A stretch of 64,000 nt of DNA from NCBI RefSeq assembly GCF_003112435.1, contig NZ_BDOQ01000007.1:124001-188000 (forward strand), read 5' to 3'. The translations under genes and the position numbers were made by a program. Positions 33,596-61,325 of this stretch are shown here, one piece after another (positions within the stretch are counted from its first letter, which is position 1; every line of letters starts with the position of its first letter). The DNA comes from Novimethylophilus kurashikiensis. GTDB lineage: Bacteria; Pseudomonadota; Gammaproteobacteria; Burkholderiales; Methylophilaceae. The notes beneath the pieces are model-generated. The model saw nothing but the letters and a program-made list of their open reading frames with translations, had not been told where the DNA came from and did not search any database.

Positions 33596-33617
33596 TTGAT
33601 TCATTCGAGGCAACACA

Positions 33618-36437: not shown

Positions 36438-36464
36438 GTCAGCAAGCCAAAAGCGTAACGAAAG

Positions 36465-36493: not shown

Positions 36494-36499
36494 TTAATC

Positions 36500-37135: not shown

Positions 37136-37136
37136 G

Positions 37137-37802: not shown

Positions 37803-37830
37803 TACTGGTGCGGAATACAGGCATATTGGC

Positions 37831-37836
37831 TATACG
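37831..37836 (+). promoter_or_regulatory. Putative -10 element before the 93-residue gene
   Basis: GGCTATACG at 84 bases before the ATG at 37915, in a 112-base gap. No good -35 is visible. It shares the CTATACG core with 10175, 18648, 32792 and 62787. Confidence 0.4.
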
Positions 37837-37914
37837 CTGATATGCCGCTTTGAATGTGGCACGCGGTATGCCAACAGGGGTTGGCGTCGCAGCCCAACAG
37901 GAGATTGATTAAAC

Positions 37915-38196
37915 ATGGCCGAAGAAACCCAAACCGAACGCAAACGCGGTGGTCCGACCGAGAAAATGGTCGAGTCTGCGAAAAAGGCAGCCGAGCGCCA
38001 CGGGGTTGCCCTCCCTAAAGGATTCGACACCGACTTTGACACCTGCAAAGGGTTCCTGGATGTTTACCTGTCGAAGCCGACGCCTAAAGCGCTTTCATTC
38101 GCAGAAAGCATTGCGAAAGACAAGGGCCTCGAGCTGCCTGAAGTGGCTCGCAACAGTGCCAAGGACCTGAGTGCCTGGATTGACGCGAACAAGTAA
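37915..38196 (+). CDS. Small basic protein resembling topoisomerase-III-type C-terminal repeats
   Basis: 93 residues. Two similar units are visible: TEKMVESAKKAAERHGVALP then KALSFAESIAKDKGLELP, each followed by a segment with a conserved Cys or Trp context. Such short repeats occur at the C-termini of some plasmid-type topoisomerases III and related DNA-binding proteins. As a free-standing protein it may be a small DNA- or partner-binding factor. The match is by pattern memory only. It is transcribed alone, with a terminator at 38220. Confidence 0.45.
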   Translation: MAEETQTERKRGGPTEKMVESAKKAAERHGVALPKGFDTDFDTCKGFLDVYLSKPTPKALSFAESIAKDKGLELPEVARNSAKDLSAWIDANK

Positions 38197-38219
38197 CCCG
38201 TCCTCGGCAAAACCCGACA

Positions 38220-38248
38220 CGCCTCGCACCAGCGGGGCGTTTTATTTT
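38220..38248 (+). terminator. Intrinsic terminator
   Basis: Stem CGCCTCGC/GCGGGGCG with loop ACCA, followed by TTTTATTTT. Confidence 0.78.
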
Positions 38249-38250
38249 GC

Positions 38251-38279
38251 TCGACGTATTTGGTATTTAACGATATACT
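38251..38279 (+). promoter_or_regulatory. Promoter upstream of the thioredoxin-like traF
   Basis: TCGACG (38251-38256), 17-base spacer, TATACT (38274-38279), 38 bases before the ATG at 38317. It starts right after the previous terminator. Confidence 0.65.
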
Positions 38280-38316
38280 AGCATTACCTTCTAACCACCT
38301 ACGTCTTGGTGTGCCC

Positions 38317-39405: not shown

Positions 39406-39596
39406 CGGCTCCTGTGCGCTGCCGAGGCTGTGGCCATATCTACAGGGGTGTGGACTATAGCCCCAACTCTGTACCGAATGAAAACGGCTATTGCGGCTGG
39501 TGTTGCAAGGAAGGCGTCACCTCTGACGCAGAAATGGCCAAGATGGAAGCGCTTAATACCCAGCGTCACCAAGAAGATGAGGTCTATGACCATTAG
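39402..39596 (+). CDS. Small zinc-ribbon protein in the transfer operon
   Basis: 64 residues overlapping the traF stop (ATGA), so translation is coupled. CRGCG ... YCGWCC gives a four-Cys zinc-ribbon arrangement, followed by an acidic C-terminus. Cytoplasmic, with no signal. I recognise no named transfer protein; a regulator or nucleic-acid-binding role would be a guess. Confidence 0.6.
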   Translation: MTAPVRCRGCGHIYRGVDYSPNSVPNENGYCGWCCKEGVTSDAEMAKMEALNTQRHQEDEVYDH

Positions 39597-39623
39597 GAAT
39601 TCTTAATGGGGCAGGGGCGTTTC

Positions 39624-39629
39624 TATACT
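39624..39629 (+). promoter_or_regulatory. Putative -10 element before traH
   Basis: TTCTATACT in the 66-base gap before traH, 34 bases before the ATG. The upstream GGGGCAGGGGCG stretch lacks a -35 hexamer. Confidence 0.4.
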
Positions 39630-39662
39630 CAGAAATATTAAGCATTGCAAGCGGAAGTCATC

Positions 39663-41564: not shown

Positions 41565-41580
41565 ACCTGAAAGATTTACG

Positions 41581-45040: not shown

Positions 45041-45061
45041 AATATTGGCAAGGTGTTTATC

Positions 45062-47428
45062 ATGATTACCTCACTTACAACATCGCTGATTCGCATCACG
45101 CTGTTCTGGTACATCCTAGGGGTTCTGGTTCTATTTATCGGGGACCCGGCATGGGCCGAGCAGGCGTATACACGGCTAGCCCTCTACCCATGGGTGCCGA
45201 CCGTTAAGTTTCATGGGCTCGGAACGGCAGCGAGTGTTCAGTGGCATCTGCTCGCTTATTGGACGATGCCTATCCTAGTGATGTGGGCGATTTCGATAAG
45301 TGTTAGCTATGGTGTCACTTGGCTCTATCAATCCTCCCATCTCTCTGCCCGTAAAGACCGGCTTGCTCCTCGAGGCAAGTTCTGGGGAGTCACCGTTCCC
45401 GGCTACTCTATCGGCGCTTTGCCGGAAGCTACAACACCCGCCCTTACCGGTGCCCCTGTTACCTTGCCCGGCGGGACCTACAAAAAGGGCGCCGCTACGG
45501 TAACGCTTGGCAACGTATTGAATGAAGCGGTCAATCTGCTCACGCCCGCGGAGCGCTTGTTGTGCGAGGAGTTGCTACAGCTTCTATATGCTGCCCCGGG
45601 ACATTTCGCCGGGCATGGCCACGGGGTAGGCTTGCTCGAGCACACGCTAAACGTCGTGACGGAAGCGGCGGTCAAGTGCAATCCTGAATTCCGCCTTCCG
45701 CTTATTGCGGCCCTGGCCCACGATATCGGCAAACTAGTCACCTTCCAGCCTGACGGGAAGGGTGGTTGGGTCCGCCGCGGGCTGCACTCACGAGAAAGCG
45801 TCCGCATCCTGGCAACACTGTCAGGGTTTGAGGCGCTGCCAGAGCTCCATCGAGATGCGCTGCTTCTCGCAGTGAAGTATGACCATGCACCCAATAAGAT
45901 GCCGCAACTCCGTGGCTCGCGCGAAGCCAGTATGCTGGCCATGCGCATCATCACCGCGCTATCCCATGCCGATAAGGCCGCGACCGCCGGCGAGAAGGAC
46001 CGGAACCTGGTCAAACTCAAGCCGGAAGACTTGCTGTGGCAAGACTTCATCGACTTTCTGCGCGAAGCCCCCGTGGTGCAGCGCGGGAAGAAGGGCGCAG
46101 CCAACCAGGTCAATAATCCTCCCGACAGCCCATACGTTTATATCTACGAAGCCCCTTGGCGTGACGCCGCTATTCCGCGCATGCCGGCCGAGGTGGCTGC
46201 TGCGCTCGACTTGACCCGTCGGGACCCGGGTAAGCTGGCCAAGTACACTCGCATCCTGGCAGAGCGTTTACGCAAGGAAGGCCTTCTGGTCGATGAGCAC
46301 GAGGGTAAGTCTGTATCCGAGGCTAATCCGTTGTGGGATATTCAATCCGGAACCGGCGAGAAGGCGGTGGTTCTCCGCGGTATCCTGGTGTTGCGCGCAG
46401 ACGCGTTGTGGAAGGCGGTGAATTACCGCATCTCCACCAAGTCGCCATTCCCGGTCCAGATTCTGGCGCCTAACGGGGATGCTGATGGCGCAGTCAATGA
46501 AGCGCCGAAGGCGAACCGTGAAGTGCCGAAAACGCCTGATGTCACGGATGTCGTCAAGGTGGACGATGTGAATAGCTCCGACACGATGGCGGCCCTTGGC
46601 CTCACGGCACAGGCGGACGTCACGCCGGCAGCCTCCGAGGCTTCCGCCGAAGCCTCGGCAGAAGATGCTTCTCATCCCACTCATTCCGCACCAGCGGCGC
46701 CCAAGCCTAAAACGCGTGGCCGATTCAAGGGCGCGGCGCCATCACAGGCGCAGGATGATGTCCTCGGGCTGGGGCTTGGTCCGGCTAAGAAGCCGGAAAA
46801 GCCTAAGCGTGAACAGGATGCTGCTCCCACTGCCCCGTCAATCGAGAATGCTCCGCCCGTGCCCGAGGCGGCCATAGCCGCCGAAACTGTTCCGGATGCG
46901 GAGCCCCTGGCCACAGAGGAGCCCGCAGCATTCGATATGTCGTCAATGCTGGAAAGTGCGCTGGGTGCCCTGAAGACCGAGACGCCAACACTCGAGGCGA
47001 CAGAAGACTTCCCTGAAATGATGTGGGAAGAGCCCGTAGACGCTCCTATGGAGCCCGCGCCGCAGCCCGTGGTTGAAGTGGCGCCCGCTCCCGCTGAGAC
47101 AGCCGCAGCCCCGGCGCCTAAGCCTGCACCAGCAAAAGAGCCCAATCCTCAGCCAGCGGCTGTGAAGGAACCAGCCCCAGCGTCGAATGAGGTGACGTCG
47201 CCCGAGCTTAGCCGCGCAGAAAAGCGGGAAGGGTTGGCCATCGCCGATGAGGCGGCCTGTGCCGCCTATCCTGGATTGGACCTTGGGGACAAATATTACA
47301 CCGAGCATTCGCGTGCTGTTCAAGCGGGATTGAAAAAGCCAGGCAGCCGGTACAAAGGGGATGACAAGTCGAAACAAATCGAATTGACAGCTTCCGGCCC
47401 GCGACGCGGAAGGAGAAAACCTAGCTAG
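45062..47428 (+). CDS. traI: MobH-type relaxase with N-terminal membrane helices
   Basis: 788 residues from the ATG at 45062 (AAGG upstream). The MobH/TraI_2 domain shows the three-His motif GHGHGVGLLEHTLNV (about 183-197) and an HD pair, ALAHDIGKL (about 215-223). Unusually, two membrane helices come first: IRITLFWYILGVLVLFIG (about 10-27) and LLAYWTMPILVMWAISISVSYG (about 63-84). The second half is a long Pro/Ala/Glu-rich linker ending in a basic tail. MobH relaxases nick oriT and pilot the strand into the recipient. The gene lies between traG and traN. Confidence 0.87.
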   Translation: MITSLTTSLIRITLFWYILGVLVLFIGDPAWAEQAYTRLALYPWVPTVKFHGLGTAASVQWHLLAYWTMPILVMWAISISVSYGVTWLYQSSHLSARKDRLAPRGKFWGVTVPGYSIGALPEATTPALTGAPVTLPGGTYKKGAATVTLGNVLNEAVNLLTPAERLLCEELLQLLYAAPGHFAGHGHGVGLLEHTLNVVTEAAVKCNPEFRLPLIAALAHDIGKLVTFQPDGKGGWVRRGLHSRESVRILATLSGFEALPELHRDALLLAVKYDHAPNKMPQLRGSREASMLAMRIITALSHADKAATAGEKDRNLVKLKPEDLLWQDFIDFLREAPVVQRGKKGAANQVNNPPDSPYVYIYEAPWRDAAIPRMPAEVAAALDLTRRDPGKLAKYTRILAERLRKEGLLVDEHEGKSVSEANPLWDIQSGTGEKAVVLRGILVLRADALWKAVNYRISTKSPFPVQILAPNGDADGAVNEAPKANREVPKTPDVTDVVKVDDVNSSDTMAALGLTAQADVTPAASEASAEASAEDASHPTHSAPAAPKPKTRGRFKGAAPSQAQDDVLGLGLGPAKKPEKPKREQDAAPTAPSIENAPPVPEAAIAAETVPDAEPLATEEPAAFDMSSMLESALGALKTETPTLEATEDFPEMMWEEPVDAPMEPAPQPVVEVAPAPAETAAAPAPKPAPAKEPNPQPAAVKEPAPASNEVTSPELSRAEKREGLAIADEAACAAYPGLDLGDKYYTEHSRAVQAGLKKPGSRYKGDDKSKQIELTASGPRRGRRKPS

Positions 47429-47490: not shown

Positions 47491-50400
47491 ATGCTGAGCC
47501 CTACTATGTCTCGCTTTGTAAAAATTCAAAGCATGGCAGCTGCTTTTTATGCGGCCGCCATGCTCATGCTGCTTCCCGGGCAAGCTGATGCCACGCTGAA
47601 GTGTCAGGAAATCGTCTCACAAATGACGTGCTCCGACTCGGCGCCGCACTCGTACGAGTATGCCCCTGGCCAGTCCACGATGATTCCAGCGCCGGTGATT
47701 TCTGGCTTCCCCTCTGCGTGCTGGACGTGGCAGCGAAAATTCCAGTGTGTGGAGCAGGACCCTATCTACACCTGTGACCCGACGGCCGACTTTAGTTATG
47801 TTAAGGCTAACTGCAGCTTGACTGCTGCGGCTATTAACAGCACGGTCACCATCAGTTCGCTCACCTTCATTACCAACGCGACTTACACCTATCGCTGCCC
47901 TTTCAGCGACTTCACCACCTCGCAAACGCTGCCTAATGGCCAAGAATGCGTACTGCTGAACTCTACGACGACGGATACTGCATCGGCGCCTGCTGCACCT
48001 ACGGGAACTGCCCCGTCTACCGGCTCAGGTAATCCGCCGACCACCACATCGCTGTCCACAACTACGGTTACCGACCAGCAGAAGGTGGATAACTACGTTT
48101 GCTACTACCCTCCTCAAACCACCTGCTCTGACACTTGCTACCAGACGGTGACGGACCCGGCTACGGGTAAGGTTACGCAAACACCGGTTGCGTGTACTAA
48201 CCCAGTTTCGAGCTGCGTGGTAACCAACGACCAATGTACTGGCGCGCTTACTACCGCTAGCGATGGTACGACGGTGACCTCCACCAACCAGAATCTGGGC
48301 CCTGATGGTCGATGCATCAATCGTCAAACCACATCACTTTGCCAAGCTGGGGATATTCCGCGGTGCTTGAATAAGGAGAGCTGCACGCTATCCTCCACGA
48401 CACCCTCGGATATACAGGCCAATGGTGTGGCCATGTCGCAGACACAGAAGTACATCTGCTCAAACCAGACGGAGTCATGCGCGCAAACCTCAACCGTCAG
48501 CAATTGCGTTCACGCCAACGCATGGGGCTGGGATAACCTGTCCATCAAGAATCAGGTAGGACAAGGCTTGGGAGAGTTTAACCAGGCGCTCGCCAAGGCC
48601 GATGCCATCCAGAAGGGGATGAATGAGGGTGACCCGTACATTTTCTCTGGCCAAGACCGCCGTTGCCACTATGCGGTAGGTAGCTTCTGGAATACATTCA
48701 TCACGATTGCCGTGATTGCAGCAACGATGGTCGCCACCGGCGGAACTTCGGCTGGCTTGATGTCTACTGCGTTGCAATCCGCAGGCATGACGGCGGCAGC
48801 GGCCAATACTGCGGCAATTAGTATTCAGGTTGGCTATTCCGCGGTTAGTGATGCGGTGGATAGCCAAGCATTTGGCTCAGATTGCTGCAAAAACTACGTC
48901 ATTGAGGGTAGTGACGGCCCCTTCCGCTTCGGCAGTTGCTCTATCGACGAAGTTAAACTGGCGGTATCTCGCCGTAAAGGGCTCTACCACTATCTTGGTA
49001 CATACTGCTCGAAGAAGGGTGGCTTCCCGCTGCGTGAGTGCAAGGAGAAGACGAAGACCTATTGCACCTTCGACGACATGTTGGCCTTGACTGTGAATGA
49101 GCAGGGGCGTGCTCAGCTGGATGCTTTGGCTTCAGCCGACCCGGCAAGCACGCAATCTACGCCGGAAATGAAAGCAAGCCTCTACACAACCGAGCCCGCA
49201 ACGCCGACTCACTACATTGAGCTGGCCAATGCGCACTGGACTAAGCTGACTTCTTTCAACCACTCGCAAATTTGGTTCTGGCAATTCCCTGGTTACTGCC
49301 AAACTCAGGATTTGCAGACAGCGGCATACAACCTGTACGAGGCGGATATAAATGCTGCTCTCAGCACTCAAGGCATCCAGCCAGGAACGATGACCAAGGA
49401 CCAGGCGATTGCGTTCTTGAAGCAGGCTGTCAATCTGCCCTCATTCCAGGAGTGCCCTGAATCGCCAGGCATGGCATCCTTTATGACCTGCAGCCTAAAG
49501 GACGATTCATGCGATGTCACCAAGTTGCCTGAAGGTCCTACAGGCGTAGAAATTGATGCGACCGGAACGGACACCTCCACAGCAGACGTCAACTGGCGTA
49601 TTCAGCAGCTTGATACCTTTGCGATGCCTGGTGACTATGGAGTGACGTCCACGATGCCTACGGATGCCACATTTGCAGCGGTCAGCGCGAGCGTCAACGA
49701 GTATGTGACGAAGACCGGCTCCTGCCATACCGATGGGGCCTGCGACTTCATGTTCGCGGTGACGGATAAGACGGCAAACTCCCTGGGCGCTCACAAGCGC
49801 GTCAAGGACTATGCTCAGTTCCCGCTCTATATGTCGATGCAAAGCGCTGCATGGCCGACGATTAACTATCTGTCTGCCGATGGCACGCTGGATACGGCTG
49901 CGCGCTCGGCTGACCCCAACCTTGGTTTGGGTACGCCATTGACGGTTAGCACGCAACGTTTCCTGTTCCACCCGAACTCGTTGCTCACTGCACCGGCAAG
50001 TGGCATCCATGACAAGGTGTTGCTCGACTGGGGTAACAGCCCGCTCACGAACAATCCGGCCGTGGACTTTGCGCCGATTCTTGTGCCAACGTCATTACCG
50101 CCGGCAACCAAGGGGTTCTACCCGTACGGTGACACGAGCAACAATGGCAAGCACTTCTACTTGTCTGGCGGTTGTGACCCCAACTCGAAGTGGTGCGACT
50201 ACACGGTTGAGGTGGATATTTCGGTACCGCGCCACCCATGGGGTAGTGCTAAACACCCGCGCTGCTGGGGCTTCACCATCGAACAGATGGCTGCGCTGGA
50301 CTTCAACAAGATGGACCTGTCCAAGTGGATTGATTCGCTGAACTTGGATTCGGCCGCAAATGGCTTGACCGGCCAGGCTGCCAAAGCCATGACCGACCAG

Positions 50401-50991
50401 GCTACGAAGTCTGCTCAATCGTTCTACAGCGCATTCAAGACTGGTTCGGCAACCAACAACCCGAACGCAGGTACTGTGGCGCTGGTGGTGAACACCAATG
50501 TTGTGCCGATGATTTCGTCTACGGAAGACAGTTCCTACACGGTGCACATGGCCGTGCCTGCGAACTGGCCGAACTGGTTCGATAACGCGCCCAACAACAA
50601 TCCTGTAACGAATGTTTGGGTGAACTGGGGTGATGGCTCGCAGCTGCAATCCGTGCCGAAGTCTGCGACTGGCCGTGCCTTCGACCTCCGTCACGACTAT
50701 GGCTCTTCGCCTCCGGGTAACTACAAGTTGATGGTGTCCTTGGATACCGCCAATAACGGTACCCAGACGTTGTCGACGACCATCCGTGTTACGCCAGACG
50801 CCGGCGGCGCACCTGCAACGCCTCAGCTGGACTTCAACAATCCGGGCACGAATGGCGCAGCACAAAGCAATTATGTGCCGTCGAACATGCAGAACGGCGT
50901 GAGCGAAGCTCCGGCCAACCTCGAAACGCTGTCGCCCGGTACCACCGACCAGTTCAACAGTCAGGGGGACACGGTAACGGCGCCGAAGTAG
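47491..50991 (+). CDS. traN: Giant TraN-type mating-pair-stabilisation adhesin
   Basis: 1166 residues, about twice the length of F TraN (602). A Sec signal is cut after ADA (about residue 34). Many Cys pairs run through the N-terminal 500 residues (TCSDTCYQTV, CQAGDIPRCLNKESC, CTFDDM), typical of TraN. A mid-protein membrane-like Ala/Gly-rich stretch (WNTFITIAVIAATMVATGGT), and a C-terminal part rich in Asn/Thr with a PKD-like segment (NWGDGSQLQSVPKSA, VNWGDGS pattern), are additions. TraN projects from the outer membrane and contacts recipient receptors. A second start at 47506 is possible. A strong terminator follows. Confidence 0.8.
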   Translation: MLSPTMSRFVKIQSMAAAFYAAAMLMLLPGQADATLKCQEIVSQMTCSDSAPHSYEYAPGQSTMIPAPVISGFPSACWTWQRKFQCVEQDPIYTCDPTADFSYVKANCSLTAAAINSTVTISSLTFITNATYTYRCPFSDFTTSQTLPNGQECVLLNSTTTDTASAPAAPTGTAPSTGSGNPPTTTSLSTTTVTDQQKVDNYVCYYPPQTTCSDTCYQTVTDPATGKVTQTPVACTNPVSSCVVTNDQCTGALTTASDGTTVTSTNQNLGPDGRCINRQTTSLCQAGDIPRCLNKESCTLSSTTPSDIQANGVAMSQTQKYICSNQTESCAQTSTVSNCVHANAWGWDNLSIKNQVGQGLGEFNQALAKADAIQKGMNEGDPYIFSGQDRRCHYAVGSFWNTFITIAVIAATMVATGGTSAGLMSTALQSAGMTAAAANTAAISIQVGYSAVSDAVDSQAFGSDCCKNYVIEGSDGPFRFGSCSIDEVKLAVSRRKGLYHYLGTYCSKKGGFPLRECKEKTKTYCTFDDMLALTVNEQGRAQLDALASADPASTQSTPEMKASLYTTEPATPTHYIELANAHWTKLTSFNHSQIWFWQFPGYCQTQDLQTAAYNLYEADINAALSTQGIQPGTMTKDQAIAFLKQAVNLPSFQECPESPGMASFMTCSLKDDSCDVTKLPEGPTGVEIDATGTDTSTADVNWRIQQLDTFAMPGDYGVTSTMPTDATFAAVSASVNEYVTKTGSCHTDGACDFMFAVTDKTANSLGAHKRVKDYAQFPLYMSMQSAAWPTINYLSADGTLDTAARSADPNLGLGTPLTVSTQRFLFHPNSLLTAPASGIHDKVLLDWGNSPLTNNPAVDFAPILVPTSLPPATKGFYPYGDTSNNGKHFYLSGGCDPNSKWCDYTVEVDISVPRHPWGSAKHPRCWGFTIEQMAALDFNKMDLSKWIDSLNLDSAANGLTGQAAKAMTDQATKSAQSFYSAFKTGSATNNPNAGTVALVVNTNVVPMISSTEDSSYTVHMAVPANWPNWFDNAPNNNPVTNVWVNWGDGSQLQSVPKSATGRAFDLRHDYGSSPPGNYKLMVSLDTANNGTQTLSTTIRVTPDAGGAPATPQLDFNNPGTNGAAQSNYVPSNMQNGVSEAPANLETLSPGTTDQFNSQGDTVTAPK

Positions 50992-51095: not shown

Positions 51096-52817
51096 ATGAG
51101 AAAATTAATCGGACGGGCAGATTTCTGGCGAATCGCCGCACCTGTTGCGGCTGGCATGGCAGCAAGCCATCCGTCGTTCGCAGGCAATCCTATCGCATTG
51201 GCGTTGGCAGCCGGGTCAGGCTTCGGCGGGTACAACTACTTTATCGAAGAAGCGCGTCGGTCATTGCGCACGGTCGATGAAGAAGTTGCCGAAGGCTTCT
51301 CCCTACGTTCTGACGATATCTTCCCTGAGACCATGGGGTTGAAGGGTGTCCGCCTGGGGTTCACCAAGGACCGCGGCATGCCTCTCGACATCGAGAATGA
51401 CAAGCTCATGCGTCACCTGGCCATCATCGGCCAGTCTGGCGTGGGCAAGACCGTTCTCGGGATGAACATCCTATGGCAGCAAACCGCCCGTGGAGGCGGT
51501 TGGTTGTTTATTGACGCCAAGCTCGACAAGGATGTCCGCGACCAGCTCGCTTACATGACCCGGGTGTTCGGCCGGGAGGATGAGTTCTACGTGATGAACG
51601 TGGACGACCCCGATAACTCGAACACCTACAACCCGCTTCTTAACGGCGACCCGGATGAAATTGCTTCCCGGTTGCTGAACCTCCTGCCATCGAGCGACAA
51701 CAACCCCGGCTCAGACTTCTATAAGCAGTCCGCCAACTATGCGTTGACCGTGCTGATTGGCGCCTTGCAGGCCGCGAAGAAGCGATACACCTTCATGGAC
51801 CTTGCCATCATGCTGCAATCGGCTGCGGCCATCAGCAGGGTGGAGACCTTGATTCCGCTCGACAGCCCGGCCTTCATGGTGCTGCAGGTCTTCCTTGACC
51901 AGTTCAAGAAGAAGGACAAGAACGGCGTACAGGTCGACGTCAACAAGATTAAGGACATCCTGGGAGGCATGTCCGGCCGTATTGCCCAGTTTGCACAGGG
52001 TAAGTTTGGCCGGGTGTTCAACACCACCACGCCTGAAATCGACCTGGTCGACATCGTGCAGAACAACAAGATGTGCTACGTCATGTTGCCCACCATGGGC
52101 AAGGATACGGCGGCGCTCAACCTGGGCAAGATGGTGCTCTCCGACCTGCGCACTGCGGTCGCAAAAATGCAGGGGCTCACCAAGGCGGAGCGGCCAAACC
52201 CGCCATTTATTTGCTTCGCGGACGAGATGGGCTCCTACGTTATGCCTGGCATCAGCCGGGTTTTTGAGCAGGCCAGAAGTGCTGGGGTGATGATGATTCC
52301 GGCCTTCCAGACGTTCGCAAACTTGGCTTCCGTGAGCCCGGAATTCGAAGAAATGATTATCGGTAATACCTGGACCAAGTGCTTCTTCAAGTTGGGCTCT
52401 ATCGACTCGGCGACGAAGGCGGCGGACATCATCGGTCAGGTGAAAAACTACCAGTATTCCGTGTCGGCCAGCCAGTCCGAGTCAGCCTCAGCCCAATCCT
52501 TGCGCGTGACCCCTGAGTCGTCCAACTCGGAATCCGGCGGCGTGGGCGAGTCCTGGCGCCAGATGGAGGAATACCGCATTTCCCCGGACAAGCTTTCACG
52601 CATGGGCATCGGTGAATGCGTGGTGTGTTCTGGCTCGCGCACGTTCCATATCTCGACGCAGGCTATCGAATTCCCGCCCGTGCCGGAGTTCAAGAAGAAC
52701 GTTTACCCCACTAGCTTGCCGGCGGGATTCTCCACGCTCGACCTGGAAGGCCAGTACGAGCAATTCCTGATAGGGCTGCGCGACACCATGCCGGTTGCCG
52801 CAGCCGAACCGCTTTAA
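51096..52817 (+). CDS. traD: TraD-type (VirD4) coupling ATPase
   Basis: 573 residues. A hydrophobic N-terminus (about 10-45) suggests a membrane anchor. Walker A IIGQSGVGKTVLG (about 109-121) and Walker B FICFADEMGSY (about 369-379) are intact, followed by EQARSAGVMMIPAFQTF, the typical coupling-protein Q-containing motif. It recruits the relaxase-DNA complex to the channel and pumps DNA. A Ser-rich insert lies near residues 453-480. The next gene is a paralogue with broken motifs. Confidence 0.9.
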   Translation: MRKLIGRADFWRIAAPVAAGMAASHPSFAGNPIALALAAGSGFGGYNYFIEEARRSLRTVDEEVAEGFSLRSDDIFPETMGLKGVRLGFTKDRGMPLDIENDKLMRHLAIIGQSGVGKTVLGMNILWQQTARGGGWLFIDAKLDKDVRDQLAYMTRVFGREDEFYVMNVDDPDNSNTYNPLLNGDPDEIASRLLNLLPSSDNNPGSDFYKQSANYALTVLIGALQAAKKRYTFMDLAIMLQSAAAISRVETLIPLDSPAFMVLQVFLDQFKKKDKNGVQVDVNKIKDILGGMSGRIAQFAQGKFGRVFNTTTPEIDLVDIVQNNKMCYVMLPTMGKDTAALNLGKMVLSDLRTAVAKMQGLTKAERPNPPFICFADEMGSYVMPGISRVFEQARSAGVMMIPAFQTFANLASVSPEFEEMIIGNTWTKCFFKLGSIDSATKAADIIGQVKNYQYSVSASQSESASAQSLRVTPESSNSESGGVGESWRQMEEYRISPDKLSRMGIGECVVCSGSRTFHISTQAIEFPPVPEFKKNVYPTSLPAGFSTLDLEGQYEQFLIGLRDTMPVAAAEPL

Positions 52818-52832: not shown

Positions 52833-54242
52833 ATGACTTTTATGATGAATTTTTTCAAGAGCCTGTGTACCCATCAAGCAGTACCCGTGGAAACCATTCA
52901 ACTTGGTACTCTGGCTGCACGTCCCCGCAAAAAGGTAGCCATGCCTGCGGATAACCTTGGCCATCATCTTTTGCTGTCCGGCGTTATGGGCAGCGGTTCG
53001 ACCAAGCTCCTCGAATCCGTCCTGGTTCAGCGCACTCAAGGTGGTCACGGCTGGTTCTATGTCGACACGCGCGAGAATTACGACATGCGCGATGTCCTCT
53101 TTGAGGCCGCTCACCATGCAGGGCGCCAGGATGAGTTTCACTTCATCGACCTCTCTAATTATCCGTCATGGGATGTCTTTGACCTGTGGGAAGGGACTCC
53201 TCACGAGCTTGCGGAAGACTTTACCGCCTTGCTGCCGCATTCCGAACCCAGCACCGGCAGCGATTACTACAGACAACTCAACCATCACCGCCTCACCGTT
53301 ATCATCAGCGCGCTGCGTGCGTCCGGGTTGAGCTTCAACCTGTACGACCTGGCTGTCGCGGTGGTTGACTTGGGAGCATTGGAACAACTGGCGATGAAAA
53401 CGCCAGAGTGGACCCCTGCCGCACAAGAACTGAAAGGACTCATTGAGACCTATCGTGATTTCGGCGAGTCCGCCGCAACCCGCTACCGTCAAGACACCGG
53501 ACATTTGGGATATAAGTTAGCCGAATTGGCAAAATTGCTGTTTTCCGATGATGCATCTGCCCCGACCATGCGACGTAAGCGCCAAGTTTCCCTTAAGGAA
53601 ATCTTCCAGCAAAACCAGCTTTGCTACATCATGCTGCCGTTTGGTGCAGATAATTCACTTCCGCCGCAGTTGCGTGAAGCGTTTGGTCGATTCCTGTTAA
53701 GCAAGATTCGGCATGCCGCCGTTTCGCGCGCCCAGGTGCCTGCTCGCGTTCGCAAGCATCCGTTCCTGCTGGGCTTCGATGGCGCAGAACTTTACCCTAC
53801 GTCGAGCCTTAGCGCCCTTCTGGCGGCAACCCCGCAATACGGCGTCGGCGTCGCGCTGCGTGCAGGGCTGGAGTGCTTCCGCCACCTTCCGGGGAGTGTG
53901 GTTGACCATGCGGTTCGCGTTATTTTCAAGCAGGGCAGCTTAGAAGACACGCATCTGGCCGAAGCGATGCTCGCTACTTCTGAGCCGCATCGCATGTCAG
54001 AAAACGTGCAGCTTCGTAAGCGTGCAACCCCGTCAGCCACTCAAGTTGCCGACCTGCAAGCAGGTGAGTTTGTCATAGACACACGAGGCTTGCGCGAAGT
54101 GTGCAAACTTCAACCAACTGAGCGCAAGGGTGTGGCCCCTTCGGCACGGTTCAGCCTGCAAAGCAGTGTCGCCCCGCAAGCCGAACTGCCCGCCTTGGAC
54201 TTGCGCTTTAGCGAACCACAGGCCGAGGTCGCACATGAATGA
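52833..54242 (+). CDS. Degenerate TraD paralogue, probable pseudo-ATPase
   Basis: 469 residues aligned with the preceding TraD: LLSGVMGSGSTKLLES against IIGQSGVGKTVLG, then GGHGWFYVDTRENYDMRDVL against GGGWLFIDAKLDKDVRDQL, and SDYYRQLNHHRLTVIISALR against SDFYKQSANYALTVLIGALQ. In the Walker A loop the catalytic Lys is Ser (GSGSTK), and the Walker B acid is replaced (LLGFDGAELY rather than DEMGSY). It lacks the N-terminal membrane anchor. It therefore probably binds but does not hydrolyse ATP and may act as a partner or adaptor of TraD. It overlaps the next small gene by eight bases. Confidence 0.8.
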   Translation: MTFMMNFFKSLCTHQAVPVETIQLGTLAARPRKKVAMPADNLGHHLLLSGVMGSGSTKLLESVLVQRTQGGHGWFYVDTRENYDMRDVLFEAAHHAGRQDEFHFIDLSNYPSWDVFDLWEGTPHELAEDFTALLPHSEPSTGSDYYRQLNHHRLTVIISALRASGLSFNLYDLAVAVVDLGALEQLAMKTPEWTPAAQELKGLIETYRDFGESAATRYRQDTGHLGYKLAELAKLLFSDDASAPTMRRKRQVSLKEIFQQNQLCYIMLPFGADNSLPPQLREAFGRFLLSKIRHAAVSRAQVPARVRKHPFLLGFDGAELYPTSSLSALLAATPQYGVGVALRAGLECFRHLPGSVVDHAVRVIFKQGSLEDTHLAEAMLATSEPHRMSENVQLRKRATPSATQVADLQAGEFVIDTRGLREVCKLQPTERKGVAPSARFSLQSSVAPQAELPALDLRFSEPQAEVAHE

Positions 54243-54507
54243 GTACCTAACCTATATCGCTATCGGAGTCGGGATACTGTTCCTGTCCCTGCTGGTGCCC
54301 GGCCTCAAGATGGTCGCCGAGGGCATCATCAAGGCGGGGGTGGATTTCATCATCGAAATCATGAAGCACAAAGCGACATTTCTCATTTGGGGCATCAAAA
54401 CCCTGGTTGGGGACCATGCGCGCGTACTTCAGCACGCCTTCCAGTCCCAGGATACGCTGGACCCCACGCAACGTGTGCGACGTGCGGCGGAAGGGTACGA
54501 CGAGTAG
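54235..54507 (+). CDS. Small membrane protein coupled to the TraD paralogue
   Basis: 90 residues. One long membrane helix at the N-terminus (LTYIAIGVGILFLSLLVPGL, about 4-23), a second amphipathic segment (about 43-58), and a charged C-terminus ending GYDE. Its start lies eight bases inside the end of the pseudo-TraD gene, so the two are translationally coupled. That paralogue lacks a membrane anchor, so this protein may supply one. Family not recognised. Confidence 0.65.
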   Translation: MNEYLTYIAIGVGILFLSLLVPGLKMVAEGIIKAGVDFIIEIMKHKATFLIWGIKTLVGDHARVLQHAFQSQDTLDPTQRVRRAAEGYDE

Positions 54508-54609: not shown

Positions 54610-56877
54610 ATGTTGAGTAAGCCTAAGTGTCCTGTGGCTACGATTGCTAATCGGCAAGCCCTGAAAGTATTGTCGTTATCCGCAATAGCTCAAGGAGTGG
54701 CCTCCTTGTTTATTCCGGTGGATTGGCTGGGACACGTAGCCTGTGGCGTTGGGGTTTTGGCTACGCACCTCGGATTGTTCGAGCTTTATCGCCGGAAGGT
54801 CATTCCTCCGGTCGTCCCTTGCAATGAACTTCGGGTTGCGGTCGACCGCGGCAATATCCAGCAGGAGAACATCATCAAGCTGGTGGACGAGCGGACCCGT
54901 GAGCTGAGCAATGCCCGCGACGAGGCGCTGGAACTGGCCACACGCAAGTCCGAGTTCCTAGCCAATATGAGCCATGAGCTGCGCACGCCTCTCAATGCCA
55001 TTTCCGGGCTTGTTGAGCTTTGTCTTGATACCGCGCCTTCGCCAAAACAGCGAAATTACCTAGAAAAGATTGAATCCTCAGCCCAGTCGCTGTTGAGGCT
55101 GGTAAGCGATGTGCTGGATTTCTCCAAGGCCGATGCCGGCCGCATTACGTTGGAGCGCATCGCGTTTGACTTACGCGGGGTGCTCAACAACCTGGAGACT
55201 ATGCTGCTGGAGAAAGCCTATTCCCATGGGGTAGAGCTGGTTCTGGAGTGCCCGCTCGATGACACCTCGCATGTGTTTGTCGGAGACCCGATGCGGATTG
55301 AGCAGATTCTCGTGAATCTGGTATCCAATGCCATCAAGTTCTCGCACAAGGGCGGCACGGTCAAAGTGGCCATCCAGGTGTCGACCGAAGCCAATCAGAC
55401 CATGATGGAAATCACCGTAAGTGATAACGGCATTGGCATGTCGCAGTCGCATCAGGAAACCCTCTTTACCCCGTTTACTCAGGCGGACGCGTCAACGACC
55501 CGCAAGTACGGAGGTACGGGGCTTGGACTGGCCATCTGCAAGCATCTGACCGAGTTGATGAGCGGCTCGATTTCCGTCCGCAGTAAGGAGGGGGAGGGAA
55601 GTACCTTCACCGTCCAGATACCGATTGAACTTCGGGATGACGTCAGCACACCGCTCGATGACAAGGTATTTGTGCCCTATGCAGGACATCAAATTTTGGT
55701 CGTCGAAGATAACGAAAGCTCGCGCAAGGCGCTTTCGCGGCAGCTATCCGCGCTGGGGATGGTTTGCATTTCCCATACCTCTGGCGAATCGGCCGTAGCT
55801 GGCTTAGCGGCCTCGGCTACGCCCGGGATGTATCTTGCCGCATTCGTGGATAACACCTTGCCCGGCATCTCAGGCATCGACACCTGCCGTCAACTTCGCG
55901 AAATTGCCCCTGGCCTGCCACTCATCCTCATGTCCTCGACGAATAGTGATGAACGGGTGACGCACGGCGCAAAATCCAACTTCTTCGACGGTACCCTGCT
56001 GAAGCCTGTCCGCGACTGGCGTACGGTTTCCGAGCTATCGATTCAGCTTGGGCTGGCTGAACGCACAGCCACAGGCCTCGCCTTCCACTCAGCGAATACG
56101 CCTGAAAGTATCCGTGGCGCGCACATCCTAGTGGTCGATGATGTCCCCATTAATCAGGAGATTCTCAAGGACCTTCTGGAGAATGTCGGCGCCAAGGTAT
56201 CGTTGGCCAGTAATGGCTATGAGGCGATTGCAGCGGTGGAATACCAGCGTCCTGATTGCATCCTGATGGATTGCCAGATGCCTGTCATGGATGGCTATGA
56301 GGCTTCCCGCAAGCTCATGGATAACGAATCCTTCAAAGATATCCCTATCATCGCCGTTACCGCCCATGCGTCCGAAGCCGACCGGCAGAAGTGTCTGGAA
56401 GCCGGCATGGTGGGCTACCTGCCCAAGCCAACAAAGGCGGCGGACGTTTACCGCATTCTGGCAACCCACATCAAGAAGCGCGTCGAGCCTGTCATCAACC
56501 AGGACGCGATGCCTGCCTACATGCTTCCCGCGCTGCCTCACATCGATGTCTCGGAAGGGCTTCTGAACTGCAATACGCCTGTGCTGTATCTCAAGACCTT
56601 GCGTACTTTCCGGGACAACCATTGCGCCAACTTTGAAGAACAGTTCTCCCTATCGCTCAAGGAGGGGAATTTCAAGGATGCGCTTCGGCATGTGCATACC
56701 TTGAAGGGGTTGGCGCGCACCGTAGGCGCCAAGGCGCTGGCCGATATTGCGTACACGCTTGAAATGACCGTGCGCGATGGCGCAACCGCAAGCGACCTCG
56801 ACCAACAACTTCCTCGGCTCTTGCGCGAACTGGCCATCGTGACACATGGCTTGCATAAAGCAGACCTCGGACAATAA
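54610..56877 (+). CDS. Hybrid sensor histidine kinase with two receivers and Hpt (BarA-like)
   Basis: 755 residues. Two short membrane helices near the N-terminus (about 16-57) with no real periplasmic sensor, then His[16 protein letters not shown] (His120), an HATPase with VSDNGIGM and [13 protein letters not shown], receiver 1 ([11 protein letters not shown], Asp near 412), receiver 2 ([21 protein letters not shown]), and an Hpt [13 protein letters not shown] (His near 695). All phospho-acceptor residues are present, so a four-step relay is possible. No matching response regulator is in the window. It precedes a type I secretion operon. GTTAATG start with GGAG upstream. Confidence 0.88.
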
Positions 56878-56885
56878 GGCATAAG

Positions 56886-56908
56886 GGAGCGGTTCCCCGC
56901 TCCTTTCC
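56886..56908 (+). terminator. Terminator after the hybrid kinase
   Basis: Stem GGAGCGG/CCGCTCC with loop TTCC and a T-rich tail. Its tail runs into the promoter of the following secretion genes. Confidence 0.65.
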
Positions 56909-56937
56909 TTGCGATTTGTGGTATTTGTTGGTATACT
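56909..56937 (+). promoter_or_regulatory. Promoter of the type I secretion operon
   Basis: TTGCGA (56909-56914), 17-base spacer, TATACT (56932-56937), 27 bases before the ATG at 56964. Confidence 0.78.
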
Positions 56938-56963
56938 TTTTATTGCCAACAAATAACAATCTC

Positions 56964-58673
56964 ATGTTTTTACATCCTCCCAAATCCAAGCCGATTGCTG
57001 CCCTACTGGACCAATGCCGCAAGGCATTCTGGCTTGTGGCGGCCGGCACGTTCCTGGCTGAGTTAATTTCCCTCGCGCCTATCCTTTACACCCTCAACAT
57101 GTATGACCGCGTTCTCACGAGCCGCAGCGAGGTCACCCTTATTTCGCTGACCGGGGTTGTCCTGGCCATGTATGCGTTTTGGGGTATGGTTGAGTGGCTT
57201 CGAGGGCGCTTGCTCATTCGCATTTCAATGCGAATCGATTGGGAGCTAGCAACCAAGCTGTTTGACGCCTCCTTCCGCCGGCATGTCACGCGTCGCGAGA
57301 TAAACGTGCATCAGGTGCTGGGCGACCTTGTGCAATTGCGTCAATTCATGACGGGGACCCCTATGCTGGCCTTGATGTCGGCTCCCTTTGCGGTCCTGTT
57401 TATTGTCATTTGCGCATTATTCCATCCTTATCTGGCCATGTTCTGCCTGGCGGCTACACTAGTCCTGTTGTTTACGACCTACCTCACCAGCAAGGCAACT
57501 ACTTCCGTGCTGGCGGAGGCAAATGTCCAGCAGGGACGAGCGAATAAGCTTGCGGCAGCCAGTCTGCAACAGTCAGAAGCCACCTTGGGGCTCGGTATGC
57601 GCGACGCATTGCGCGCAAGGTGGTATCGGGCGCATCAGCAATTCCTAGGGCAACAGGCACAAGCTAGCGAGGCCCAGGGGATACTAGGCGGTTTCTCAGG
57701 CTTTTTATCCCGGGCGCTGCAATCCTTGGCGACCGCCTTGGGCGTGTTTCTTGCCATCAACGGGCTGATTACCGGCGGCATGGTGATGGCCGCCACCTTC
57801 CTTATCACCAAAACGCTGACCCCGTTGCAGCTTGTCATGGGAGCCTGGAAGGACATCACAGCAGCTCGCCAAGCCTATGCGCGTCTCGATGCCTTACTGG
57901 AGGAGGATGTGCTGCCTGAAACTCAGGTCACGTTGCCTGCGCCGAGTGGAAAGCTCGTGGTGGAGGGGATGACGGTCGTTCCGCCCGGAGCCGAAGCCAC
58001 CGTGCTCCAGAATATCCAGTTCTCGCTCGAGCCGGGGGACGCATTAGCGATTGTGGGGCCGTCGGCCTCAGGCAAATCCTCTTTGGTCCGCATGCTCGTG
58101 GGTTTGTGGAAGCCGTCGCAAGGGCATGTCCGGCTGGACGGCGCCGAGCTCTATGACTGGGCTCGAGCCGCCATTCCAGTTGGGCAGCACGTTGGCTATT
58201 TATCCCAGGACATTGGATTCTTTGAGGGTACCGTGGCTGAGAATATCGCTCGCATGGGTGCGCCTGAGTCCGACCAGGTGATTCATGCCGCCAAACTTGC
58301 TGGGGTTCACGAGGCTATTCTTTCCTTCCCGCAAGGATACGAAACTCAGCTGGGTGAGCTGGGCCACATGCTGACCGGTGGTCAGCGTCAACGCATCGCG
58401 TTGGCTCGCGCCATGTACGGGTCGCCTCGCTATCTGGTGCTGGATGAGCCCAATTCGGCCTTGGACGAAGCCGCAGAACGTGCGCTGGTGGCTGTTCTGC
58501 AGGCGTATCGCGCAGCAGGGAACACCATTATCTTCACGACCCATCGCCCAATGCTGATTTCGGCTGCGACCAAGCTCATGGTTCTGGCCGCTGGGCGCCA
58601 GGCCGCGTACGGCCCTATTAAGGATGTGCTGGCCACTATCGCACCACAACCGGTACAAGCTGAAGGTGGCTAA
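56964..58673 (+). CDS. Type I secretion ABC transporter (PrtD-like)
   Basis: 569 residues from the ATG at 56964. A six-helix membrane domain in the first 300 residues (e.g. FLAELISLAPILYTLNMYDRV), then the ATPase with Walker A VGPSASGKSS (about 363-372), signature LTGGQRQRIALARAM and Walker B YLVLDEPNSALDE. No N-terminal C39 peptidase or CLD domain, as in PrtD/AprD types. It energises one-step export through HlyD and TolC. The next gene starts one base after the stop. Confidence 0.9.
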   Translation: MFLHPPKSKPIAALLDQCRKAFWLVAAGTFLAELISLAPILYTLNMYDRVLTSRSEVTLISLTGVVLAMYAFWGMVEWLRGRLLIRISMRIDWELATKLFDASFRRHVTRREINVHQVLGDLVQLRQFMTGTPMLALMSAPFAVLFIVICALFHPYLAMFCLAATLVLLFTTYLTSKATTSVLAEANVQQGRANKLAAASLQQSEATLGLGMRDALRARWYRAHQQFLGQQAQASEAQGILGGFSGFLSRALQSLATALGVFLAINGLITGGMVMAATFLITKTLTPLQLVMGAWKDITAARQAYARLDALLEEDVLPETQVTLPAPSGKLVVEGMTVVPPGAEATVLQNIQFSLEPGDALAIVGPSASGKSSLVRMLVGLWKPSQGHVRLDGAELYDWARAAIPVGQHVGYLSQDIGFFEGTVAENIARMGAPESDQVIHAAKLAGVHEAILSFPQGYETQLGELGHMLTGGQRQRIALARAMYGSPRYLVLDEPNSALDEAAERALVAVLQAYRAAGNTIIFTTHRPMLISAATKLMVLAAGRQAAYGPIKDVLATIAPQPVQAEGG

Positions 58674-58674
58674 T

Positions 58675-60063
58675 ATGAAATCGCCTATCGAGTCTCTGGT
58701 CAGCTGGATAAACAGCTTCAACCCATACTCTCCTGATAAGCTGGCACCGGCTGCCGGCGGCAACCCGCTTCCGCTCACGACAGAGGGCTCAAACTCAAAG
58801 ATGCCTTGGGTGTTCGCCGGGTTTTTCGTTGCATTTGCCGGCTGGGCGGTCATCGCTCCCATTGATTCAGGTGTCGTGCTCAATGGCGTGGTGGTCGTGC
58901 AGGGTAACCGAAAGGTGGTGCAGCATCCCTTGGGTGGAGTTGTTTCATCCATCATGGTGAAGGAGGGGTCGCATGTCCGCGCCGGCGACCTGCTCTTCAA
59001 GCTCAACCCGCTGAACACGGAAGCCAACCTTGCAGGCGCTGAAGTCGACTATATCGAGGCGCTGGTGACGGAGTCCAGGTTGAAATCCGAGCGGGAAGGG
59101 GCCCCAGAGATTCGATGGGACGCGGACCTGGCGCCATACACCAAAGACCCCCGCTTTGAAGCCGCCAAGGCCGTCCAAACCGGCCTGTTTATGGCCAGAA
59201 AGGGAGAGCTCAAGGCTCAGCAGGGCGCCTTGTCGCAACAGATTGCCGGCTTGAAAGCGCAGAATGCCGGGCTGGAGGAGTCTCAAGCTCCGCGCACGCA
59301 GCAGATTGCCCTGCTTTCGGAAGAGGTCCGGAATAACCGCGAGCTTGCGGCCGAGGGACATGTCCCTCGCGCCCGGGTTAGTGAGTTGGAGCGGCAGCTG
59401 GCGGAAGCCAATGTGAGTCTGTCGGAAATGCAGGCGGAAAAGGGAAAAAATCTCACCGCCATCGCCGGACTGGAATTCCAGTTGGCGCAATCGAAGGCGA
59501 CTTGGCTCAAGGAGCTGGAAACCCAGTTGGTGGATGCTGAGAAATCCCATATCTCGCTCAAAGCCAAGGTCGCCTCGTTCAAGAGCGAGCTGGCCCAAAC
59601 GGACGTTCGAGCGCCAGCCGCTGGCATCGTGGTTGGACTCAAGGTGAATACAGTAGGGGGTGTGGTCGCGCCGGGGCAAACGCAGATGGAAATCGTCCCG
59701 GAAGACTCCCCGCTTATCGTTGAGGCCGATGTGCCGACGAACATGATTGATAAGGTACATGCTGGGCTCTTGGCTGATTTGCGGTTCTCAGCCTTCAACA
59801 CCATATCGACGCCCGTCGTAGCTGGCCGCGTGAAGCTCGTTGGCGCCGACCGACAGTTGGCGCAACCTCCCGTCCATCCGAACGACTATTATCTGGCGCA
59901 AGTCGAAACCTCCGCCCAGGGCGTACGCCAGCTTGATGGAAAGGTAATTCAAGCCGGGATGCCCGTGGAAGTCGTCGTCAAGACTGGTGAGCGCAGCTTT
60001 ATGTCGTACCTCCTGAAGCCGCTGCAAGACCGCTTGGCCCGGTCGTTCAAGGAAGGGATGTGA
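58675..60063 (+). CDS. HlyD-type membrane-fusion protein of type I secretion
   Basis: 462 residues from the ATG at 58675 (AAGGTGG upstream). One membrane helix (about 44-61), a biotinyl-lipoyl half with VVVVQGNRKVVQHPLGGVV, a long coiled coil (about 120-315), then the second half with VRAPAAGIVVGLKV and a beta-barrel. This is the typical HlyD or PrtE layout. It links the ABC protein with the outer-membrane TolC-type protein. The final ATGTGATG joins it to the next gene. Confidence 0.9.
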   Translation: MKSPIESLVSWINSFNPYSPDKLAPAAGGNPLPLTTEGSNSKMPWVFAGFFVAFAGWAVIAPIDSGVVLNGVVVVQGNRKVVQHPLGGVVSSIMVKEGSHVRAGDLLFKLNPLNTEANLAGAEVDYIEALVTESRLKSEREGAPEIRWDADLAPYTKDPRFEAAKAVQTGLFMARKGELKAQQGALSQQIAGLKAQNAGLEESQAPRTQQIALLSEEVRNNRELAAEGHVPRARVSELERQLAEANVSLSEMQAEKGKNLTAIAGLEFQLAQSKATWLKELETQLVDAEKSHISLKAKVASFKSELAQTDVRAPAAGIVVGLKVNTVGGVVAPGQTQMEIVPEDSPLIVEADVPTNMIDKVHAGLLADLRFSAFNTISTPVVAGRVKLVGADRQLAQPPVHPNDYYLAQVETSAQGVRQLDGKVIQAGMPVEVVVKTGERSFMSYLLKPLQDRLARSFKEGM

Positions 60064-61325
60064 TGCGTACCACCTATCGCCTGCTTGCCTTGCTGGTGGC
60101 AAGCCTGCTCGGTAGCACAACCGCAAGCGCCGGACCATTCACCGAAGGCTATGCCGCTGCGCGCGGTACCGATAGCCTCTTTCTCTCCGCCGCGCCTGAG
60201 AAGGAGGCGGCTGGGTGGGCGGCCATGACAGCCCGCGCCGCGTACCTGCCGTCGGCCCAGCTTCAGCAACAGCAGCAATACAGTACCTCCTCGCTTACTA
60301 GCCGCACATTCAGTGTGAGCCAGCCCGTGTTCTCCATCGACAAGGCCGCTACCGTGATGGAAAGCACGCCCCGACTCAGGAGCGCGGAAAGCGTGTATGT
60401 CCAACGTGAGAATGACCTCGCTACCCGCTATTTCAAGGCCCTCGCGGACTGGTTGAAGGCGAGTGAAGGTCTCCGCCTCACCAGCGCCAAGAAAACGGCT
60501 TACACGCAGCAATATGAGGCTGCCAAACGCGCGCTCCTCGCGGGGGAGGGGACTGTCTCCGACCGGCAAGATGCCTTGTTGCGACTCGAACAGGCGCAAT
60601 CAGAAGAGGTTTTGCTCGAGGCGCAACAGCAGGCCGCTGCCAACGAGGTGCAAATGATTTCCGGGGTGGCGCCGAATGACACGTGGTCGACCCTGACCGT
60701 CGGAGAACTGCCCAAGCTTCCCGAGCAGGAGGACTGTTTGCGCGAGGCCCTTGCCCACAACCCGCAGCTCCTGCAAGCCCAGTCTGATAAGGAAATGGCA
60801 GACCTTGGTGTTTGGAAAGCTCGCGGCGCCCTGGCTCCGCAGGTGTCCGTGGTAGTGGCGCATACGACGGTAAGCAATTTCACCACCGAGTACACCGGTA
60901 TCCAGGTCAGCATGCCATTGGGCGTCGCCCCGGTAGGCCAGGCGTTAAGCGCCAGCGCCAATGCCGACCGCCAGCGCTGGCTGACGCTGGATGCGGAAAA
61001 CAAGGTAAAACTCGACGTACGGAAGCTTTATGCCCAGTTCAAAGCAGGCGTGGCCGAGGTCAGTATGCGCAAGACCGCAGTGGAAACAGCCAGTCTTGGG
61101 GTGGAGGCCAATATGAAGAGCTACCAGGGCGGCGTTCGCACAAAAACAGATGTGCTCAACGCGATACAGGCCTTGTATCAAGCCAAGCAGGATTTGGTAA
61201 CAGCTCAAATTGCCCTGGCTGAGAGCTACCTCAACCTCGAGCTGACACAAGGCACGCGCCCGGAGGCGATTCTGCAATCCCTGGATGGCTACCTGTTCGC
61301 CAAAATTGACAAAACTAGTATTTAG
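60063..61325 (+). CDS. TolC-family outer-membrane efflux/secretion protein
   Basis: 420 residues with a Sec signal cut after ASA. Long alpha-helical hairpins (about 90-190 and 290-400) with repeats such as ANADRQRWLTLDAENKVKLDVRK and YQAKQDLVTAQIALAESYLNLE are typical of TolC. It overlaps the HlyD stop by one base. With the two upstream genes it makes a complete type I exporter. No obvious substrate with Gly-Asp repeats is in the window. Confidence 0.88.
   Translation: MRTTYRLLALLVASLLGSTTASAGPFTEGYAAARGTDSLFLSAAPEKEAAGWAAMTARAAYLPSAQLQQQQQYSTSSLTSRTFSVSQPVFSIDKAATVMESTPRLRSAESVYVQRENDLATRYFKALADWLKASEGLRLTSAKKTAYTQQYEAAKRALLAGEGTVSDRQDALLRLEQAQSEEVLLEAQQQAAANEVQMISGVAPNDTWSTLTVGELPKLPEQEDCLREALAHNPQLLQAQSDKEMADLGVWKARGALAPQVSVVVAHTTVSNFTTEYTGIQVSMPLGVAPVGQALSASANADRQRWLTLDAENKVKLDVRKLYAQFKAGVAEVSMRKTAVETASLGVEANMKSYQGGVRTKTDVLNAIQALYQAKQDLVTAQIALAESYLNLELTQGTRPEAILQSLDGYLFAKIDKTSI

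Follow-up and report, generated by a model that had tools for sequence, protein, structure and literature searches.

Immediately downstream of an intact TraD-type coupling protein gene, Novimethylophilus kurashikiensis carries a second TraD-like gene whose product, here called pseudo-TraD, lacks the Walker A lysine and the catalytic glutamate. This arrangement of a dead paralog next to TraD is real and conserved, and it is without a description in the literature searched. The window analyzed here, i.e., the whole stretch of 64,000 nucleotides, comprises bases 124001–188000 of a 225,409-base contig in a genome of 3.69 Mb. The tandem position, the homology, the predicted TraD/TrwB fold, the loss of both residues and the open reading frame throughout the group were established by computation. 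We regard the chances as about even that pseudo-TraD is a catalytically dead duplicate of TraD, kept within the coupling complex as an adaptor or as a non-hydrolyzing accessory subunit.

The F-type transfer genes of the window run from 29227 to 44574 on the + strand and encode, according to Pfam, TraE, TraK, TraB/TrbI, a DsbC-like protein, TraV, TraC, TrbI, an S26 peptidase, TraF, TraH, and TraG, with the TraK_C and TrbI_Ftype matches falling below their cut-offs. Upstream of TraD in the same cluster and on the same strand are an HD-domain protein of 791 aa (45053–47428), a candidate relaxase by position with a Pfam HD match (0.00039) below cut-off, and a TraN-like mating-pair stabilization protein of 1166 aa (47491–50991; F_T4SS_TraN, 3.2e-19). 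The coupling protein itself (573 aa, 51096–52817, + strand) has intact Walker A (GQSGVGKT) and Walker B (FADE) motifs, matches the Pfam families TraG-D_C (2.2e-9) and TrwB_AAD_bind (9.3e-8) and has its closest relatives in Agitococcus (58%) and Variovorax (57%). The frame of pseudo-TraD (469 aa, ATG start, 52833–54242, + strand), a tandem TraD paralog by homology, motifs, and predicted fold, begins 15 nt past the TraD stop codon. As the preliminary description had proposed from the sequence, the two proteins align; BLASTP gave 27% identity over 281 residues with an E value of 2e-34, and the likeness is therefore beyond chance. Profile searches gave less: pseudo-TraD matched no Pfam family at E values up to 1, including the TraG/TraD C-terminal domain (PF12696), and only sub-threshold NCBIfam models, the best being SXT_TraD with 31.7 bits at a cut-off of 366.

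Other genes of the window were noted as well. Right after the transfer genes, positions 54610–61325 encode a hybrid histidine kinase with an Hpt domain, an ABC transporter, an HlyD-like adaptor, and an outer-membrane efflux protein; the calls for the ABC transporter and the HlyD-like protein rest on translations, those for the kinase and the outer-membrane protein on Pfam matches. Genes for replication and repair lie between 7203 and 26635, encoding a family A DNA polymerase, a toprim/primase, a RecD2-like helicase, an ImpB/MucB-type polymerase, and a DEAD helicase.

The alignments place the TraD Walker A motif GQSGVGKT opposite GVMGSGST at residues 50–57 of pseudo-TraD (bases 52980–53003, + strand, computed from the start of the frame), bearing out the reported replacement of the lysine by serine. 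The claimed loss of the Walker B acid stood in part: in the degenerate region LGFDGA at residues 313–318 (53769–53786, + strand), the catalytic glutamate is a glycine and the preceding aspartate is retained (FADEM vs FDGAE), so that one of the two acids is gone. Residues of the following motifs have disappeared too, namely the glutamine corresponding to TraD Q405 and the arginine of FEQARSA (R394). Among 87 positions nearly invariant in 25 TraDs, the window copy retains 31, a related copy from Caballeronia 44 and those from Pseudomonas 29–30. Since the glycine-rich loop, Thr57, and the Walker B aspartate survive in the window copy, an active NTPase with an unorthodox site, with serine in place of lysine and the aspartate kept, could be imagined. 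However, the loop has been lost in different ways in the relatives described below (GAGSR, STGQE, SEGQG), the glutamate is present in no copy, the glutamine is gone in the relatives as well, and the arginine is gone from the window and Pseudomonas copies, all of which makes residual NTPase activity extremely improbable.

To the extent that it can be predicted, the fold of pseudo-TraD is that of a coupling protein. An AlphaFold2 model was computed from 25 aligned sequences, of which 23 came from related loci and the others were the two proteins of the window. Its mean pLDDT was 66.6, with ten-residue means mostly between 70 and 94 in the core (residues ~35–380) and low confidence at 1–34, 241–248, and 381–469, the last stretch comprising about 90 residues. 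Foldseek returned DotL (6sz9_A, E 1.6e-9) as the top match, and VIA-align 2 aligned the model with DotL 6sz9_A over 312 residues (Z 24.9, rmsd 3.4) and with TrwB 1gl7_F over 331 residues (Z 22.7, rmsd 4.8). VirB4 and HerA proteins ranked next at lower Z, as expected within one superfamily. A Pseudomonas-type second copy (locus L040) was modeled better, with a mean pLDDT of 77.6, and had the same structural neighbors (6sz9_A, Z 27.9; TrwB, Z 25.4). Thus, pseudo-TraD is predicted to possess the nucleotide-binding and all-alpha domains of coupling proteins. In predicted fold it resembles TrwB of R388 and DotL of Legionella, and its gene, too, belongs to a transfer cluster (F-type), where it adjoins TraD; compared with TraD, TrwB, and VirD4, it is without the Walker A lysine, the catalytic glutamate, a detected N-terminal transmembrane domain, and a TraG-D_C match.

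A search of 72,556 plasmids with pseudo-TraD (tblastn) yielded 38 records, all below 60% identity and many of them ordinary TraDs. Among the plasmids, p2 of Caballeronia grimmiae encodes a 447-aa “hypothetical protein” directly after TraD that has GAGSR in place of GVGKT. With this protein and then a Pseudomonas copy as queries, a second TraD-like gene adjoining TraD was found in 16 plasmid records, and two more second copies came from the genome-contig loci L039 and L040. Plasmids of Pseudomonas, Stenotrophomonas, Burkholderia, and Caballeronia thus carry degenerate copies at the same site. Where the plasmid records examined are annotated, genes of this type are labeled “hypothetical protein”. 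We use the term pseudo-TraD group, a grouping of our own, for the TraD-adjacent dead paralogs of the IncpSTY-type plasmids, pBVIE01 and C. grimmiae p2; its members share a gene right behind TraD that is without the Walker A lysine and the catalytic glutamate. The second copy followed TraD immediately in all eight relatives checked for spacing, with a gap of 28 nt in Caballeronia and Burkholderia and an overlap of 8 nt in six Pseudomonas records.

Eighteen copies were read (the window copy, those of 15 plasmid records, and those of L039 and L040). The lysine was present in none of the 18 and the glutamate in none of the 18, and the frame was open in all of them. Many of these copies are near-identical, so they amount to about three sequence types and not to 18 independent cases. 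In the Pseudomonas copies the Walker B pairing shifts by one position between two alignments, with the glutamate absent in both. The loss that had been noticed in a single protein is hence conserved, as no homolog with intact motifs was found among the copies read. Judged from their sequences, the degenerate second copies next to TraD form a recurring arrangement and are no private accident of the window.

Is the window copy nevertheless a functionless duplicate, decaying in its lineage with a frame that is open by chance? It is the single known member of its lineage, it has lost key motifs, and it sits on a long branch, all of which would fit such a reading. Decay in relatives, which the preliminary description had raised, was mostly not seen: besides the open frames, the dN/dS of dead-copy pairs (Nei-Gojobori) was 0.11–0.25 in the eight pairs, out of ten, that gave a usable dS (2.5 in one of the eight). 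One relative, from Pseudomonas kurunegalensis, is damaged. For TraD of the same plasmids, dN/dS was 0.005–0.04 in nine of ten pairs, so that the dead copies appear to be under purifying selection that is looser than that on TraD. These ratios cover the dead copies of the relatives; the window copy, which is without a close homolog, was addressed by simulating neutral drift. When a 445-codon TraD core was allowed to drift to 30% amino acid identity, it accumulated 3–23 stops, 11.9 on average, and none of the 500 runs stayed stop-free, whereas the frame of pseudo-TraD contains none. This argues against long neutral decay of the window copy and is still compatible with a recent loss of function, as is the selection on the parallel dead copies if the loss came after long selection. 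The core of the model also keeps block-mean pLDDT values mostly of 70–94 in spite of only about 22% identity to TraD, as counted for the fold core. Taken with the open frame, this makes decay of the duplicate very unlikely.

In two of the plasmids TraD does not form one continuous frame. The P. kurunegalensis plasmid (L013:6920-13517), the sixteenth record with a second copy, has a TraD broken in two and a divided second copy whose distal portion lies on the other strand; an IS5-like transposase gene and others lie between the pieces. In the plasmid of Stenotrophomonas rhizophila GA1 (L085:748-2508), TraD has 18 stops in frame, through either sequencing error or real loss, and the dead copy that follows keeps an open frame.

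The dead copies may not share a single origin. The Pseudomonas and Burkholderia-group copies cluster together with support. One side of a branch with support of 97/100 in a first tree and 94 in a second holds window TraD, pseudo-TraD, Variovorax, and Halomonas, to which the second tree adds Agitococcus and Marinospirillum; the order within that side is not settled in either tree. No second copy was found in those window-side relatives where looked for. The branch leading to pseudo-TraD is 7 to 9 changes per site long, and the program warns of long branches meeting. In both trees the window copy stands apart from the other dead copies, requiring 2 changes, of which the starred branches force 2 in the first tree and 1 in the second. 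A tree constrained to a single clade of dead copies was worse by 8.0 log-likelihood units (AU p 0.11, not rejected). Two separate duplications, one for the window copy and one for the others, are the simplest reading of these sequences, with a single origin not rejected at this AU value. A single orthologous family for all dead copies was not adopted (AU p 0.11).

No close homolog of pseudo-TraD was present in the genome contigs collection, and neither the viral contigs collection (no relative) nor the phage records (no match) contained one. With pseudo-TraD as query, 5 of 149 genomes of relatives, including its own, matched at E ≤ 1e-3, and the best of the others (L004) was an ordinary TraD with intact motifs; among 369 genomes of the class, the only match at E ≤ 1e-10 was the window's own. 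A profile of eight dead copies matched 12 of 398 genomes of the phylum, its own included, and the three strong matches outside the own genome (L067–L069) were a single TraD each, at loci of about 4 kb. TraD as query matched 9 of 399 genomes of the order, again including its own, with one TraD-like ORF at each of the other eight loci (2.2–4.7 kb). Out of 24 genome-contig loci with relatives of TraD, two had a second copy and 19 had no TraD-like second ORF on either strand, including L049, in which TraD itself is in two pieces; at L041, L047, and L050 the contig stops at or shortly past TraD, which makes them impossible to judge. As 19 of the 24 TraD loci do without it, the function of the second copy is dispensable or replaceable.

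Six whole records of plasmids with TraD alone at its locus were also searched for a second copy at some other site. TraD was the single match in Variovorax WDL1, Halomonas THAF12, Cupriavidus metallidurans BS1, and Paraburkholderia fungorum pBIL, and Methylibium RPME01 had one further match, a weak one (E 1.5e-8) that covers 92 residues within a frame of 962. A DUF87 protein encoded 8 kb downstream of the Variovorax TraD was rejected as a second copy; its Walker A motif is intact and its matches to the TraD and pseudo-TraD set are weak and short (best E 0.011). A Vreelandella plasmid (L092, AP019515.1 266256-266945) has a partial TraD-like stretch with a stop inside at 266 kb and a fragmented TraD at 19 kb.

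Pseudo-TraD had been described as devoid of a membrane anchor, and hydropathy agrees insofar as no transmembrane segment was detected (best 19-residue Kyte-Doolittle mean 1.39, below 1.6). The contrast with TraD is weak, though, because the best value for full-length TraD is likewise 1.39, and within residues 1–90 it does not exceed 1.02; an anchored TraD beside an unanchored paralog is therefore a softer distinction than it seemed. An N-terminal transmembrane domain is absent in one known subfamily of coupling proteins. Three Pseudomonas-type copies reach hydropathy values of 1.66–1.76 at residues 29–46, but this stretch is probably no membrane segment since the one copy that was modeled has a helix and a strand of its ATPase core there.

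The small ORF that had been seen overlapping the end of pseudo-TraD is present. It encodes a membrane protein of 90 aa (54235–54507, + strand; ATG at 54235, stop at 54505–54507), identified by its frame, hydropathy, and homologs; its start overlaps the stop of pseudo-TraD by 8 nt, and it has one clear hydrophobic segment (2.1, 19-residue Kyte-Doolittle). The further suggestion that it serves as the anchor of pseudo-TraD in particular found no support, because homologs also stand behind TraD in lineages without a second copy, Halomonas and Agitococcus among them. With phmmer run on ORFs from the + strand of the retrieved loci, we found relatives adjoining TraD (E < 1e-3) at 16 loci besides that of the window (L052), of which 14 have TraD alone (L016 and L029 being the same strain) and two a dead copy (L011, L017). 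A tblastn search of all plasmids at E values up to 10 gave eight records, each with a weak match (E 0.001 to 0.1), all on plasmids of Variovorax or Halomonas, the nearest TraD relatives, and just downstream of TraD. The idea that it anchors the dead copy alone was consequently dropped, and the small protein belongs to the TraD module generally; as the N terminus of TraD is weakly hydrophobic, it may tether TraD too.

At some of these loci the small gene is easily overlooked. It is unannotated and lies in the +1 frame within the first part of the annotated gene that follows at L020 (7288-7554 within 7245-8150), and the same nesting was seen at L011, L017, L018, L019, L021, L022, L024, and L027, i.e., in plasmids of Pseudomonas, the Burkholderia group, and Cupriavidus. 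Between L020 and L022 the synonymous rate was 0.03–0.07 in the overlap vs about 0.6 in neighboring genes, as expected of a double-coding stretch. In Variovorax (L016:10736-11071), an open frame of 111 aa lies between TraD and the small protein, of which the record annotates the 3′ part (64 aa).

Small membrane partners of this kind have precedents. Coupling proteins without a transmembrane domain pair with a small membrane protein, as TraJ and TraI of pIP501 do, and one coupling-protein subfamily needs a TraJ membrane protein encoded alongside, according to the accessible part of one account (PMC7434980). Both would be models for window TraD together with its small membrane protein; in those cases the partners work with an active coupling protein, and the accessible text makes no mention of a dead paralog (PMC7434980).

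What would a dead copy contribute? Conjugation is reported to fail when the Walker A motif of a coupling protein is mutated (PMC7434980), and pseudo-TraD could therefore hardly stand in for TraD. The same failure would suit a brake on transfer, in which the dead copy enters TraD rings, lowers their activity, and so limits the cost of conjugation as a natural dominant-negative; the TraD-like predicted fold, the adjacent position and, judging from that position, a probable co-expression fit as well. However, a constant brake right behind TraD would presumably be costly to keep, and we consider this distinctly unlikely.

Alternatively, the dead copy could be a dedicated substrate or relaxosome adaptor outside the ring that brings a particular relaxase or protein substrate to TraD. 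In the same plasmid pairs, its dN/dS is about 4- to 54-fold that of TraD, a difference that a component conferring specificity would be expected to show. Relaxase types point in the same direction: among 16 records with a second copy, 14 were typed and 14/14 include MOBF (one has MOBF plus MOBP; two were untyped), and among 11 records without a second copy the three typed ones were MOBP, MOBP, and MOBV. Yet the plasmids are near-copies of each other, so that this link represents one or two events, and the whole window genome contains no TrwC (MOBF) or TraI_2 relaxase match at E 0.1; a weak, sub-threshold PF03432 match lies on another contig. Relaxase type was dropped as the explanation of the second copy for want of independent events, and we rate the dedicated adaptor as unlikely.

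Dead copies would sit in working systems if a group-level statement is followed, since IncpSTY plasmids, to which pSTY, pJ20133-VIM, p716811-VIM, and pHN39-SIM were assigned, are reported to transfer in the accessible part of the source (PMC8905914). pTTS12 was discarded as a test case; in the part of the paper available, it carries a different, P-type system (PMC9537497).

Degenerate ATPase copies or domains occur in other secretion systems. Rickettsia also has a duplicated type IV secretion ATPase with one degenerate copy, VirB4b, which we take to be the same gene as RvhB4-II of later papers. For this second VirB4, the available part of the source gives seven altered critical residues in the NTP cleft and suggests pseudogenization or neofunctionalization (PMC2653234). 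It differs from pseudo-TraD in that VirB4 is not a coupling protein and, as far as the available text indicates, virB4b lies away from the other vir genes, whereas the pairs described here are tandem ones on plasmids. In the type VII ATPases EccC/EssC, Walker motifs are degenerate in the D2, D3, and DUF domains, with regulatory or hexamerization roles proposed in the text available (PMC11154593). The likeness lies in degenerate Walker motifs within an FtsK-like secretion ATPase; as described there, these domains are part of one chain with an active ATPase, unlike pseudo-TraD, which is a separate protein. IncA/C plasmids with two proteins of the TrwB/TraD group are on record, many of them with extra relaxase or T4SS types, and a dead site goes unmentioned in the accessible part of that study (PMC9709138). 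The accessible parts of two further papers (PMC11077975, PMC12857230) hold nothing more on dead coupling proteins. We found no description of a catalytically dead coupling-protein paralog in the literature searched, which is weak evidence as subscription papers were mostly outside reach.

For a duplicate kept as a non-hydrolyzing accessory subunit or adaptor, the following course may be envisaged. A duplication beside TraD would have been followed by loss of the lysine and glutamate needed for ATP hydrolysis. The dead copy might then use surfaces inherited from the TraD ring to bind TraD or the base of the type IV channel, and act without hydrolysis, either as a dead position in or on that ring or as a platform at which the relaxosome or some other substrate docks. 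As a general partner on the TraD side, the small membrane protein would tether the complex. A bolder version, in which F-type systems of plasmids at least twice made an obligate non-hydrolyzing subunit out of a tandem duplicate, so that live and dead TraD form a hetero-oligomer that the separate small protein holds at the membrane, strikes us as speculative and unlikely. In either form, a natural dead paralog beside a live TraD, on plasmids whose group is reported to transfer, would offer a genetic handle on substrate choice by coupling proteins and on the working of their ring, and it would bring the conjugative DNA pump into the pattern of dead ATPase partners of which VirB4b and the EccC domains are examples.
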